From: an uncultured Erysipelotrichaceae bacterium
GTDB lineage: Bacteria; Bacillota_I; Bacilli_A; RFN20; CAG-826
Direction: 5' to 3'
DNA: 39,197 nt
Assembly: GCA_902768335.1 (NCBI GenBank)
Contig: CACXKR010000010.1
Location: forward strand, 1-39,197
Positions 9,618 through 29,600 of this stretch are shown here, piece after piece (the stretch's first letter is position 1; every line of letters begins with the position of its first letter). The notes below the pieces were generated by a model. That model was not told the origin of the DNA. It ran no database searches and worked only from the letters and a program-made list of their open reading frames with translations. The translations under genes were made by a program, and so were the position numbers.

Positions 9618-10895
9618 ATGAAAAGAGAAGTAAAAAAACTCGAAAATTCCAAAGTTGAAGTTCTCTGTGATGTTGAACCAGCTCTTTGGAAAGAATATCA
9701 AGAAAAAGCTTTTAAGAAATTAGCAGCAAATCTTGAAGTCAAAGGCTTCCGTAAAGGCAAAGTCCCAGAAGCTATGGCGAGAAAAGAAATCAATCAAGGT
9801 TCCATATTTAATGAAGCCGTCAATCTTTCTCTTCAACCAGCTTTTGATGAAGTTCTTCGCGAAGAAAAGCTTCAACCATTTGCTCGTCCAAGCGTTGACG
9901 TCACTAAGTTAAGTGACAGTGAACTTCAATTGAAGTTCATCATTGTTTTAGCTCCAGAAGTTAAGCTTGGTCAATATAAAGGTTTAGGCGTTAAGAAAGA
10001 CGCTGTTAAAGTCGAAGAAAAAGAAATCGACGCTGAAGTTAAAAAACTCGTTGAGCAAAACGCTTCACTCGTCGTCAGCGAAAAACCAGCCAAGAAAGGC
10101 GATACAGTCGTCTTTGACTTTGTTGGTAGTGTAAACGGCAAAGAATTCGAAGGTGGAAAAGCTGATAACTATTCATTAGAACTCGGTTCAAATAGTTTTG
10201 TTCCAGGCTTTGAAGATCAATTAGTTGGCGTTAAGAGCGGTGAAGATCGTGAAGTTAAAGTCACCTTCCCAACTCAATACGTCCCAGATCTCGCTGGTAA
10301 AGAAGCGGTCTTTAAATGCAAGATTCACGAAGTGAAAGAAAAAGTTATTCCTGAACTTAACGAAGAATTAATTGCCGAACTTAATATTCCAAATGTTAAA
10401 ACCGTTGCAGAACTTAGAGAATACGAAAAACAAGCTCTTCTTTCTCAAAAAGAAAATGCTGCTAGTAACGCCGCATTTAATAAAGTAATGGATAAGATTA
10501 TCGAAGGTTCCAAGATTGAAATTGCCGAAGAAGTCTTAAAAGACGAAGTCGAAGGCATGAAGAAAAATATGGAACAACAAGTTTCACAACGTGGCTTAAC
10601 CCTCGAACAATATTATTCAATCACTGGTCAAAAGCCCGAAGATGTTGAAAAACAAATGAAGGTTGAAGCCGAAAAGAATCTTAGAGCCATACTTTGTATG
10701 GAAGAAATCGCTAAAGCTGAAAAAATCGAAGTTAGCGATGCTGAAGTTGAATTCGAATTCTCCAAAATTGCTGATCAATATAAGATGGAAGTTGAAAAGG
10801 TTAAAGAAATCCTTGGTAAAGATTTACCACGTTTCAAAGCCGAACTCCGTCAAAGAAGAATCCAAGATTTTATTGGAAAAGAAAATATTGCTTAA
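9618..10895 (+). CDS. tig: Trigger factor, ribosome-bound chaperone and prolyl isomerase
   Basis: 425 residues, full length. The N-terminal ribosome-binding domain has the signature GFRKGKVP at about residues 41-48. The FKBP-type isomerase domain spans about 150-240 (KGDTVVFDFVGSVNGKEFEG, FVPGFEDQLVG). The long helical C-terminal arms close the protein. Known role: docks at ribosomal protein L23 near the exit tunnel and shields nascent chains. A good AAGGAG precedes the ATG. Lon follows 26 bases later and EngB overlaps Lon, so the three probably form one operon. clpX and lonB, which follow tig in B. subtilis, are not here. Confidence 0.96.
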   Translation: MKREVKKLENSKVEVLCDVEPALWKEYQEKAFKKLAANLEVKGFRKGKVPEAMARKEINQGSIFNEAVNLSLQPAFDEVLREEKLQPFARPSVDVTKLSDSELQLKFIIVLAPEVKLGQYKGLGVKKDAVKVEEKEIDAEVKKLVEQNASLVVSEKPAKKGDTVVFDFVGSVNGKEFEGGKADNYSLELGSNSFVPGFEDQLVGVKSGEDREVKVTFPTQYVPDLAGKEAVFKCKIHEVKEKVIPELNEELIAELNIPNVKTVAELREYEKQALLSQKENAASNAAFNKVMDKIIEGSKIEIAEEVLKDEVEGMKKNMEQQVSQRGLTLEQYYSITGQKPEDVEKQMKVEAEKNLRAILCMEEIAKAEKIEVSDAEVEFEFSKIADQYKMEVEKVKEILGKDLPRFKAELRQRRIQDFIGKENIA

Positions 10896-23683: not shown

Positions 23684-26017
23684 ATGGAAAAAGTTTTGTC
23701 TTTATCGGTCCATCAACTTGTTGATTTTTTACTTAGAACTGGTGATATCGATAATCGAGTATACAACAAAACGACGATGAGCGAAGGAACCAAGATTCAT
23801 TCTTTTCATCAGTCGAGGCAAAACGCAAATTACTATCCTGAATTCTTTTTAAAAGACACATTCAAAGTCAAAGACTTTACTTTCAATATTGAAGGACGCG
23901 CTGATGGAGTTATTATCGACGGTGATAAAGTTACGATCGATGAAATAAAATCAACCATCTCTCCTTTGGAGGAATATTTTGAATCACAAAAAGAATGGCA
24001 TCTAGGTCAAGCAAAATGCTACGCCTTAATGTATGCGAGACTTTATCATCTCGATGAAGTAGGGGTCCAGTTAACCTATATTCACCAAATCGAAAATACG
24101 AAGATGATAAAGAACTTCTCTTTTAAAAGAGACGAACTACAAAAATTTGTTGATAATCTTTTAAGCGAATATTTAGATTTTTATCAATTTATTTTTGATA
24201 GAACCCAAGAGAGAAATAAAACTGCTTCCAAATTAGAATTTCCGTTTCCGAAATTTAGGGCAGGGCAGAAAGAATTAGCTAAATATGCCTATGGCATCGC
24301 TACAAACGGTGGTCTCCTTTTCGCTGAAGCTCCGACTGGGATTGGTAAAACGATGTCGACTTTATATCCTTTCGCCAAATCTTTTTCGAGTGAAACCAAT
24401 GATAAAATCTTTTATTTAACTGCCAAGAACTCTGGAAGAGTTGCTGCATATAAAGCCGCTATGCTTCTTCTTGAAAAAGGCCTCAAAGCATCGGTTATTA
24501 CAATTACTGCAAAAGATAAAATTTGTCTTTGTCCTGGTAAAGGCTGTAACCCAGATGAGTGCCCATTCGCTAAAGACTATTACACTCATATTCGAGAAGC
24601 GGTAACGAAAGCAATTAAAGAGAACTTACTTTTTTCACCTGAAACAATACTTGATATTGCAAAGCAATACACAATCTGTCCGTTCGAGTTTCAATTAGAT
24701 TTGTCTCTTTATAGCGACATCATAATTTGTGATTACAATTATCTATTTGATCCAATGGTGTATCTTAGGAGATTTTTCGACGAAGATGCTTCGAAGATGA
24801 TTGTTTTAGTTGATGAATCACACAATTTGGTGGACCGCGCTAGAGAAATGTATTCAGCATCTTTTAACTCTTTCTTATTTAAGAAAGCAAAGAAAGCTGT
24901 CCATAATTTGGAACATCGAAAGATTAAAAATGCTATTAAACGAATTTCGAAAATATTTAATAAATATAAGATTCTTGAACCTGGCGATTATATTATCGAC
25001 CATCTTGAGGAAGAAGATTTAAGAGGCATAAATGCCTATCTACTTGCTTCAAGCGATGTTAATAAGCATCACCATAGCGAAATAAATGAAGACTTCACCG
25101 AATTTTTCTTTGAATTAAATAAATTTGCAAAACTTTACGATGTCTTTGACTCCTCATTTACTCTATACGTCACAAAAACGCCGTCAGGAGAGACGAAAAT
25201 TACTCTCTATTGCTTAGACCCACGAGGCCAAATAAAGATGGCTTTAAATAAGGTGAAAGCTAAGATTATTTTTTCAGCTACTTTATCGCCAGCTGAATAT
25301 TATGTCGATTTATTAGGTGGGACTAAAAGCGATCCATTGCTAAAATTAGCCTCACCATTTCCAAAGGAAAATCTTAATTTAATGGTCGCTCCAACTGTTT
25401 CAATTCGTTATAAGAATAGAAGCAAAACACTTGAAGAAGTATCTCAGTATATCAAAGCAATGGTGGAAGCCCGTTTAGGCAATTATTTTGTCTATGTTCC
25501 AAGTTATGAATATTTAGAGCAACTTGCCCCTTATCTTAAAGATATGGATGCGAATTTAATCATTCAGGAACGCGATATGAGTGAAATTGATAAGATGCAG
25601 TTCTTATCTTGCTTTGTCGATAAACCTAAGAACACGACCGTAGGATTAGCTGTTGTTGGTGGCGCCTTTGGCGAAGGTATCGATTTGGTCAGCGATCGCC
25701 TCATCGGAGTTGCCGTTATTGGAGTTGGCCTTCCTCAAATTTGTTTTGAAAGAGATTTGATTCGCTCATATTTTGAAAAAACTTCTGGAAATGGCTATTC
25801 TTATGCTTATATAAATCCAGGCATTAACAAAGTTATGCAGGCGGTTGGAAGAGTTATTAGAAGTGAATCTGATCGCGGGGTAGCTCTATTAATTGATGAT
25901 CGCTATTTAACAAAGACTTATATTGACCTCTTCAGAAACGAGTGGCCTCAATACAAAGTCGTTACTTCCTTAAAGGATGTAAAAGAAGAAGTTGCCAACT
26001 TCTGGAATAGAAAATAG
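23684..26017 (+). CDS. DinG/XPD-type DNA helicase with N-terminal PD-(D/E)XK nuclease-like domain
   Basis: 777 residues. The first 170 residues look like a Cas4/RecB-type nuclease fold: D74 in GRADGV, E87-x-K89 in TIDEIKS, then [10 protein letters not shown] with Gln109. The XPD-like helicase follows with Walker A APTGIGKT (216-223), an iron-sulphur cysteine group at C281, C283, C288, C293 and C332, DEAH-type box DESH (377-380), and motif [16 protein letters not shown]. Known family role: 5'-3' unwinding of DNA, often of damaged or R-loop-like structures. The nuclease residues seem complete, so it may cut as well as unwind; that is inference. It is not DinG of E. coli, which lacks this domain. 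No Shine-Dalgarno sequence. Its last codons hold the lepA promoter. Confidence 0.85.
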
Positions 26018-27839: not shown

Positions 27840-27875
27840 TCAGTTGAAACTTAGTTAAAATTTAGTAGTTTTATA

Positions 27876-27904
27876 TTGATATATACTTTGTGACATGCTA
27901 TTCT
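27876..27904 (+). promoter_or_regulatory. Promoter of the Fic-like gene
   Basis: TTGATA (27876-27881), 17 bases, TATTCT (27899-27904). The message would start near 27911 and carry a weak GAGG ten bases before ATG 27925. Confidence 0.6.
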
Positions 27905-27924: not shown

Positions 27925-29328
27925 ATGGCAGACAACACACTTGCAATTAGATTCAGTGAAGAGAATTATTCAACTCGTGCTGAAGTAGCCGAAGCGTTAG
28001 GCACAAATTTAATAGAACCAATTTGGGTTACGATTTTATCGTACCGTAAACAATATCGTAAACAATTGAACCTTTTTGATATTACTAAGGTTCCTTTTAC
28101 GATTGCCTACATGCCCAAAATTATTGAAAAAATTGAAACTCTCGAAGAGAGCATTTCTCAATACATTGTAAGTTTTGGTGGTTTACAACCTGGTTCAGTT
28201 TCGCAATACACAGTATTTCGAGATGTTGTTATTCATGAATTAAAAATGATTGCGAAAATCAATAAGATCAATGTTAACGATGTCGCTTTAAACAATGTTT
28301 ATGAATATAAAAACACCGAATCGTTATATGAACCACTCCATAGATATTTCGCAGCCTTAACTCACCTTGATAAAAATCCTAAAGAGAAATTTGATTTAAA
28401 TACCATTAAAACTTATTATTCGATCATTTCAGGAAGCGATTTAGACGAATCTTTCTTTAGAAAAGATGAAATTAATACGGCTGGTCAAAGGTTACTTGTT
28501 GACCGCGAATACGCTGGTGCACCTACTCAAGAAATTCCATGGTTAATGGATAACTTAATTAACTATGTTAATAATAGCAAAGATTCCTTTGTAACAAAGG
28601 TAGCGGTTACTTCTTATATGATCGCCTACATCAAACCATTTGAGAAATATAATGCTGAGATGAGTGCGATTTTAACAAAGTTAATCGTTTCGCTTAGTGA
28701 TGTTGAATCTGCCGCTGCTTATATTCCTTTAGAAGCTATTGCTTTAGATGAAAAAGGTTTGTTAGCTAGCGTTTCAAGAGAAATTCAACGTTCAAGAGAT
28801 TTAACATATGAACTCTTAAGAGTTATCGACTTATTCTCATCTTCCTTAGATATGGTGATGGATAAGATTGCGCAAGTTACGATGACCGCTGTTAAAAATT
28901 CTTACACCTTTGGTGAATCTAAAGAAGATTTTGAAAAAGAGTTTGGAGTTTCTCCAAGTGAACAAATCATTGAAACAAAGAAGGAAGTTATTGAACAACC
29001 AAAGGTTGAACAGCCAAGACCACGTGAGCATAAGCCAATTCAAGTTATCGAAAGAGAACCTGTTGAAGAAGGCCCATCTGATAAACAATTAAAACGCATG
29101 GCCGAAAACCTTCTTGAAGAAGACCCTCTTCTAAAGAAGAAACAAGCTCATTTCTATGTTAGACATTGCACCAAAGGCAAATATTATACGATCCAGCAAT
29201 TTAAGAAATGTGAAGGAACAGTCTACGAGACCGCTCGTACATCTATGGATGATTTGGCGCGCCTTGGCTACTATAAGCGTGAACAAGTGAAAAACAAGTT
29301 TGTTTACACTCCAATTGACAAAGAGTAA
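27925..29328 (+). CDS. Fic-fold protein with degenerate active site and C-terminal winged helix
   Basis: 467 residues. The middle region has the Fic layout: TAGQRLLVDREYAGAPTQEI (185-204, flap region), LMDNLINYVNN, then IKPFEKYNAEMSA (236-248) where active enzymes have HPFxxGNGR. His is Lys237, both Gly are lost (Tyr242, Ala244) and Arg is Glu245; only P-F and Asn243 remain. AMP transfer by the normal mechanism is therefore unlikely. A charged linker (about 330-385) leads to a C-terminal domain (about 390-463; TIQQFKKCEGTVYETARTSM, LGYYKREQ) that looks like a winged helix. Active Fic proteins with winged helices are known (SoFic type), so this is probably a non-catalytic, DNA- or protein-binding relative. 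Its operon partner is a small membrane protein. Actual function unknown. Confidence 0.7.
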   Translation: MADNTLAIRFSEENYSTRAEVAEALGTNLIEPIWVTILSYRKQYRKQLNLFDITKVPFTIAYMPKIIEKIETLEESISQYIVSFGGLQPGSVSQYTVFRDVVIHELKMIAKINKINVNDVALNNVYEYKNTESLYEPLHRYFAALTHLDKNPKEKFDLNTIKTYYSIISGSDLDESFFRKDEINTAGQRLLVDREYAGAPTQEIPWLMDNLINYVNNSKDSFVTKVAVTSYMIAYIKPFEKYNAEMSAILTKLIVSLSDVESAAAYIPLEAIALDEKGLLASVSREIQRSRDLTYELLRVIDLFSSSLDMVMDKIAQVTMTAVKNSYTFGESKEDFEKEFGVSPSEQIIETKKEVIEQPKVEQPRPREHKPIQVIEREPVEEGPSDKQLKRMAENLLEEDPLLKKKQAHFYVRHCTKGKYYTIQQFKKCEGTVYETARTSMDDLARLGYYKREQVKNKFVYTPIDKE

Positions 29329-29348: not shown

Positions 29349-29600
29349 ATGTTTAGAACTTTAGCAGCATCAGATCTATTACCATTATGGATTATCCTAG
29401 GACTCCTAGGTTTCTTTGGATTACTAATCTTAGTAATCATCTTTGTAAAAAGGCATGTCGCTTCCTTACAGATTAAAAAGGATGAAATCACCGAAGAAGA
29501 AGCTGTTCGTCAAGAACTTGACCGCATTTTAGTTCCTATCGAAGATGAAGAAATTCAAAAAGCGATGGAAGAAGAAGCTAAAAAGAATGGCCAAGCTTAA
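29349..29600 (+). CDS. Small single-helix membrane protein, unknown function
   Basis: 83 residues. A transmembrane helix at about 11-33 (LPLWIILGLLGFFGLLILVI) is followed by a short basic turn (KRH) and a long acidic cytoplasmic tail (about 40-83) predicted to be helical, perhaps coiled. I do not recognise a family. GGGAGCGAG lies about ten bases upstream, 20 bases after the Fic-like stop, and the gene overlaps hemW by 14 bases. It probably shares the Fic-like gene's message. The basic turn places the tail inside the cell. Confidence 0.65.
   Translation: MFRTLAASDLLPLWIILGLLGFFGLLILVIIFVKRHVASLQIKKDEITEEEAVRQELDRILVPIEDEEIQKAMEEEAKKNGQA

Follow-up and report, generated by a model that had tools for sequence, protein, structure and literature searches.

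A Fic-derived protein without catalytic residues and its probable DNA sites at the chromosome terminus and dif

The stretch of DNA analysed here (the window; 39,197 nucleotides from an uncultured Erysipelotrichaceae bacterium) carries a gene whose product is probably a non-catalytic, Fic-derived DNA-binding protein of the terminus and dif region that also controls its own gene, as judged from the co-occurrence of the gene with arrays of TTAGTA direct repeats. Its task may thus be to mark the chromosome's end point, close to dif, at which chromosome copies become separated, and not to modify other proteins. No report of such a dead-Fic protein, or of the dif module described below, was found in the open-access literature. 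The gene and the parts of its product are as follows.

27925..29328, plus strand: dead-Fic gene, 467 aa, an ATG-start ORF with a Pfam Fic match
27925..28104, plus strand: N-terminal conserved segment, residues 1-60, RFxxExYxTRxEVAxALGTxLIDxIWxxIxxYR, from alignments
28459..28683, plus strand: Fic core, residues 179-253, from the PF02661 match
28633..28659, plus strand: dead motif KPFEKYNAE at the HPFxxGNGR position, residues 237-245, from 77 orthologues
28885..29079, plus strand: P/E/K-rich, poorly conserved linker, residues about 321-385, from column entropy
29080..29325, plus strand: winged-helix-like C-terminal domain, residues 386-467, the most conserved part, from entropy and a weak PF03965 match

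The Fic layout proposed in an earlier note on this DNA was borne out by profile searches. Pfam Fic (PF02661) matched residues 179-253 with 26.4 bits (gathering cut-off 24), the family profile matched the solved Fic proteins 4rgl (E=1.1e-12, spanning profile positions 66-312), 8cil (1.9e-8) and 7cb8 (8.3e-6), and the PADLOC SoFic model matched the protein at 6e-11. A two-sequence AlphaFold model had a pLDDT of 36 and left the fold unconfirmed. The C-terminal winged helix, also named in the earlier note, was recovered in part: PF03965 (Penicillinase_R, BlaI-type) gave weak sequence matches in all 18 aligned members (best E 7.9e-5), but the window's own protein scored 14.4 bits, below the cut-off. 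A single-sequence model showed a wing-like hairpin at low confidence (pLDDT 55). In the alignment of 77 orthologues, mean column entropy was 1.45 bits for the winged helix, 2.31 for the Fic core and 2.81 for the linker; the presumed DNA-reading end thus appears to be the most constrained part of the protein.

At residues 237-245 the window reads KPFEKYNAE in place of HPFxxGNGR; as the earlier note had observed, the His, both Gly and the Arg are replaced. Pro, Phe and Asn are retained. Alignment showed that the catalytic His is present in none of the 77 orthologues (Lys in 52, Arg in nine, Gln in five, others in the remainder), and that the first Gly and the final Arg are likewise found in none, with Glu at the latter position in 56. 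Pro is kept in 77/77, as is Phe or Tyr, and Asn or Ser is common at the motif. The orthologues share a replacement consensus, [KR]PF[ED]x[YFH][NS][ED]E. The same loss in all 77 aligned sequences implies that the catalytic residues were already gone in a common ancestor and that this state has become fixed, and that the replaced motif is itself under constraint. That the altered motif carries a new chemistry rather than none is extremely improbable: the replacement motif is indeed conserved, but all positions of HPFxxGNGR other than Pro, Phe/Tyr and Asn have been replaced, and in relatives from a second order (family f25) the middle domain is much shorter.

Five further Fic genes were found in the window's own genome (G000, <1 Mb; contigs C4, C6, C17 and C22). 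Four of these, ordinary Fic genes, retain HPFxxGNGR and have no match to the winged-helix model, implying that the dead-Fic gene is not a decayed copy. A decayed copy, to which close relatives with an intact motif would have pointed in the earlier note, was ruled out, because the loss is shared by all orthologues, and the ordinary Fic genes of the own genome are intact and unrelated to it in the winged helix; no intact-motif close relative was found.

A first search detected the dead-Fic gene in 31 of 41 genomes, and a 20-sequence profile detected it in 180 of the 192 genomes of the order, which consists of gut bacteria with small genomes (142 of the 150 good ones). These are genomes of which many are fragmentary and most apparently metagenome assemblies. 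Four of the 12 genomes without the gene, all of family f1, also lack lepA, so that the absence there is an assembly gap. The gene order is lepA, dead-Fic gene, hemW, hrcA, grpE, dnaK; the placement between lepA and hemW was seen in the window and wherever flanks were read, down to about 20% identity. The position stated and the vertical conservation suggested in the earlier note were thus both confirmed. No relative was found in the viral contigs searched, and a prophage or mobile gene was ruled out on this ground and because the gene is always syntenic.

Outside the order, profile matches were mostly ordinary Fic domains. A short homologue of roughly 250-310 aa was, however, found in a single family, f25, of the second order (20 of the 196 genomes searched). 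It resembles the dead-Fic protein in its N-terminus (the residues 1-60 segment, by alignments and in L109) and winged helix, and it lies between lepA and hemW in both genomes in which flanks were read; it differs in the shorter middle domain, a Spo0A-like neighbour, TTTTGTCGAA upstream and the lack of a TAGT array (11-bp arrays in 0/15 f25 upstream regions). The alignments and flanks support vertical, syntenic descent of the gene across the order and in this one family. The Spo0A-like gene follows the short homologue at L109:4588-5307 (TIGR02875 63.6 bits, below the cut-off of 200; its receiver looks degenerate), and TTTTGTCGAA-like sequences, which resemble Spo0A boxes, precede most f25 homologues (L105, L156-L173).

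Two elements lie immediately upstream of the dead-Fic gene.

27851..27867, plus strand: candidate operator TTAGTT-N5-TTAGTA, an 11-bp direct repeat with its spacing kept in 57 of 72 orthologues
27876..27904, plus strand: TTGATA-17-TATTCT resembling a promoter, 8 bp past the array, 9/12 matches

Within the genus, upstream regions have TTAGTA-N5-TTAGTA in common. Two TAGT exactly 11 bp apart were found within 200 bp upstream of 57 of 72 orthologues (64 of 72 when spacings of 11 or 22 bp are counted), and in the histogram of spacings the main peaks are at 11 and 22, while TAGTAGT gives rise to side peaks. No 11-bp TAGT array was present in 166 upstream regions of lepA, hemW, hrcA, grpE and dnaK from loci of the same set; promoter arrays are absent in some orthologues of the gene itself (L124, L100, L102). 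In L090, L092, L093 and L096 the upstream array is on the reverse strand, and its occurrence in either orientation favours a DNA site. The promoter, called good in the earlier note, proved to be modest: it has TG before the second hexamer, and 9/12 matches is about shuffle level. A dyad spanning the -35 was also seen at 27870-27890; it reads CTTATTGTAATAAG in the genus, and its arms change together between species. Others have a GC-rich hairpin with a T-run at this position, and the dyad is possibly the lepA terminator.

Each genome has about five copies of the exact two-box pattern, which recurs at the same places in related genomes, namely at the dead-Fic gene, at dxs, in the interval after rsfS, after plsY and at glyS-dnaG; some of these, such as dxs and dnaG, are promoter-like places. 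The three-box pattern gave about 540 matches, compared with about 26 for the reversed pattern, and was found in 140 of the 192 genomes (count from table). Nine genomes that have lepA and lack the gene (f4, f6, f8 and G035) contained a single three-box match between them, and none was found in G032, in which the winged helix is degenerate and its conserved residues are lost, or in 30 genomes without the gene from the rest of the class. Among f25 genomes with the short homologue, two of 19 had a three-box match. This co-occurrence largely follows whole clades, clear independent co-losses being limited to two (G035 and G032), and it suggests that the dead-Fic protein very probably binds the arrays. 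It is quite unlikely that another protein binds them and that the dead-Fic gene is only the best conserved target of that protein. The link between protein and arrays does come from co-occurrence, and hexamer-N5 repeats resemble the sites of OmpR/PhoB-family proteins; but the arrays vanish along with the gene or with the intact winged helix, and the window's own genome (89% complete) has no match to PF00486, the OmpR-type domain, so that an OmpR-type regulator was rejected as the array binder. A KOPS-like reading of the arrays was also rejected, the sites being too few.

The positions of the arrays point to the terminus. In the 879-kb contig of G062, the GC-skew maximum lies at 183-184 kb; dif, one mismatch away from a Firmicutes consensus, is at 184,434, the next best candidate having six mismatches. 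Twelve of the 19 strict arrays of this genome are within 45 kb of dif (p=3e-8); shuffled copies have 0-1 arrays. The nine arrays of at least three boxes are all intergenic in a genome that is 94% coding; seven of them are within 45 kb of dif and two lie between convergent genes. The dif site of G115 (176.9 kb) falls together with its skew maximum (170-176 kb), and arrays flank them, so that clustering at the terminus was seen in both genomes.

The interval after rsfS, one of the recurring places, is the dif site. With the Firmicutes dif consensus, a dif candidate was found in 40/40 genomes, mostly with 0-1 mismatches (two or three mismatches in G154, G025, G032 and G036). An array lies next to dif in 21 of 23 gene-bearing genomes, on the XerD-arm side, about 100-170 bp away and oriented toward dif, compared with 0/8 gene-lacking genomes (in a ninth, G036, the flank was too short). 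In the window's own genome, dif is at G000:C18:10110 and the array at 9978. One of the two exceptions is G025, which has the gene and its promoter array and no array at the dif candidate; in the other, G154, dif is uncertain. A second, mirrored array is often present beyond dif in family f3, where the loci were found via the arrays, and the dif loci of genus g48 (G042, G043, G044 and G046; L310-L313) carry dense TAGT/ACTA pairs in both orientations and no single polar array.

In 19 of the 31 gene-bearing genomes examined, a set that includes G000 (L327), a DnaA-box-like sequence, TTWTCCAC, separates dif from the array, mostly 98-104 bp from the dif centre; it was found in 0/16 others and in 0.7% of random windows. 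In most, the array starts either 27-33 bp or 41-42 bp beyond it, a difference of about one 11-bp period. The DNA between dif, TTWTCCAC and the array is apparently unconserved across genera, so the layout seems to be selected. That the gene itself lies close to dif carries no weight as evidence, since lepA is near dif also in G034 and G206, which lack the dead-Fic gene.

Taken with the arrays next to its own gene, these positions bear on the suggestion of the earlier note that the protein is a regulator. That suggestion holds in part: there are probable sites before the protein's own gene, but sites also lie beside dif, are clustered at the terminus and in part occupy gaps between convergent genes, places that call for no promoter, so regulation is only part of the picture. 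It is unlikely that the protein is an ordinary transcription factor whose arrays serve as operators for the gene itself and for a small number of further genes (dxs, dnaG) and are near the terminus by chance. Such a factor would fit arrays placed directly against the -35 of the dead-Fic gene and ahead of dxs and dnaG, and direct repeats of 11 bp adjoining the -35 are typical for activators. However, the array that varies least keeps a set distance, side and orientation relative to dif and, in the genomes read, stands between convergent genes, another array follows plsY, and the clustering at the GC-skew maximum is strong; a plain regulator would explain the promoter arrays only. The main role of the dead-Fic protein is therefore likely to be at the terminus or at dif.

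A role at the terminus could also be that of a replication fork trap, with the dead-Fic protein as a polar terminator like RTP or Tus, which we regard as very unlikely. RTP/Ter of B. subtilis and Tus/ter of E. coli share with the present system sites in the terminus, a directional site and a site before the protein's own gene, and RTP is a winged-helix protein, as the dead-Fic protein may be. The dead-Fic system differs from both in its dif-locked site and in the lack of strict polarity and of any sequence relation found: by hand tally, 29 of 44 non-dif arrays (about two thirds) are directed at dif, G087, G090, G092 and G050 are exceptions to the polarity rule, and there was no RTP match by profile. 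A strict fork trap was rejected because this polarity is too weak. Fork traps are reviewed in PMC10331603.

Three other known systems invite comparison. SoFic-type Fic/Fido AMP-transferases share the Fic core by profile and probably the arrangement of a helical core followed by a winged helix; the dead-Fic protein differs from them in that no orthologue has the catalytic His, the Gly loop or the Arg, in its distinct N-terminal segment, in its vertical position among core genes and in a winged helix that is more conserved than the Fic core. The dead-Fic protein would resemble MatP/matS, which organizes the Ter macrodomain of E. coli, in being a dedicated DNA-binding protein with several dispersed sites in the terminus region around dif. 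MatP is a ribbon-helix-helix protein that acts on palindromic sites, whereas the dead-Fic system has a putative winged helix, 11-bp direct repeats and one site locked to dif; a Pfam search of the dead-Fic protein gave no MatP match. The plasmid Xer accessory systems (cer/psi with ArgR, PepA and ArcA) also place accessory DNA at a fixed distance beside an Xer core site, about 180 bp of it in cer (PMC5357621); the present system is at the chromosomal dif, uses a different protein and lies on the XerD side. Few groups have well-known terminus organizers whose sites have been mapped (MatP, Tus, RTP). If the proposed role is true, an order-wide, dif-locked system derived from a dead enzyme fold would be an independent solution, the chromosomal dif would become comparable with plasmid cer and psi, and the protein would clearly exemplify a Fic fold put to new use as a structural scaffold for DNA binding, its sites being already mapped.

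In the mechanism proposed for this role, the winged helix would recognize TTAGTA direct-repeat arrays with an 11-bp period, and several subunits, joined through the flexible linker to their winged helices, would be able to line up along one face of the DNA. Binding to the array in its own promoter would make the dead-Fic gene autoregulated. The protein would further occupy the array about 100-170 bp from dif, which is on the XerD-arm side, points at dif and usually has TTWTCCAC in between, as well as intergenic arrays up to about 45 kb from dif. Its dead Fic domain may serve as a dimerization or docking module, and the protein's likely task is to form a nucleoprotein complex at dif and the terminus which would aid chromosome-dimer resolution, decatenation or positioning of the terminus. 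More tentatively, and with somewhat less than even confidence, the dif of this order may be, instead of a bare 28-bp site, part of a fixed module (dif, about 100 bp, TTWTCCAC, 11-bp TTAGTA array) in which an array-bound dead-Fic complex gates XerCD dimer resolution or recruits topoisomerase IV.

ParE is our guess for the docking partner of the dead Fic domain, because active Fic proteins modify ParE (PMC7479194) and parE-parC lies 3-8 kb from dif in the window's own genome; it is conceivable that the dead domain still docks on ParE. An FtsK P-loop motif was seen in G115 and was not found in the G062 sequence examined. Another candidate partner, also a guess, is the product of the usual downstream neighbour of the dead-Fic gene.

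29349..29600, plus strand: ORF for a one-pass small membrane protein, 83 aa, with a charged tail

Most members of family f1, and some of f3, have this ORF between the dead-Fic gene and hemW, and it was not found in several f5 genomes; it scored 17.5 bits against TIGR04561, below the cut-off. In one subgroup of the genus (L046, L047, L052, L054, L055 and L056), an insert of about 1 kb separates it from the dead-Fic gene and, judged from the first residues, reads as a 6-phosphofructokinase gene. On the other side of lepA, the window encodes a DinG/XPD-type helicase at 23684-26017, the N-terminal 190 aa of which resemble by eye a PDDEXK (Cas4-like) nuclease, and this helicase gene is kept upstream of lepA over much of the order.
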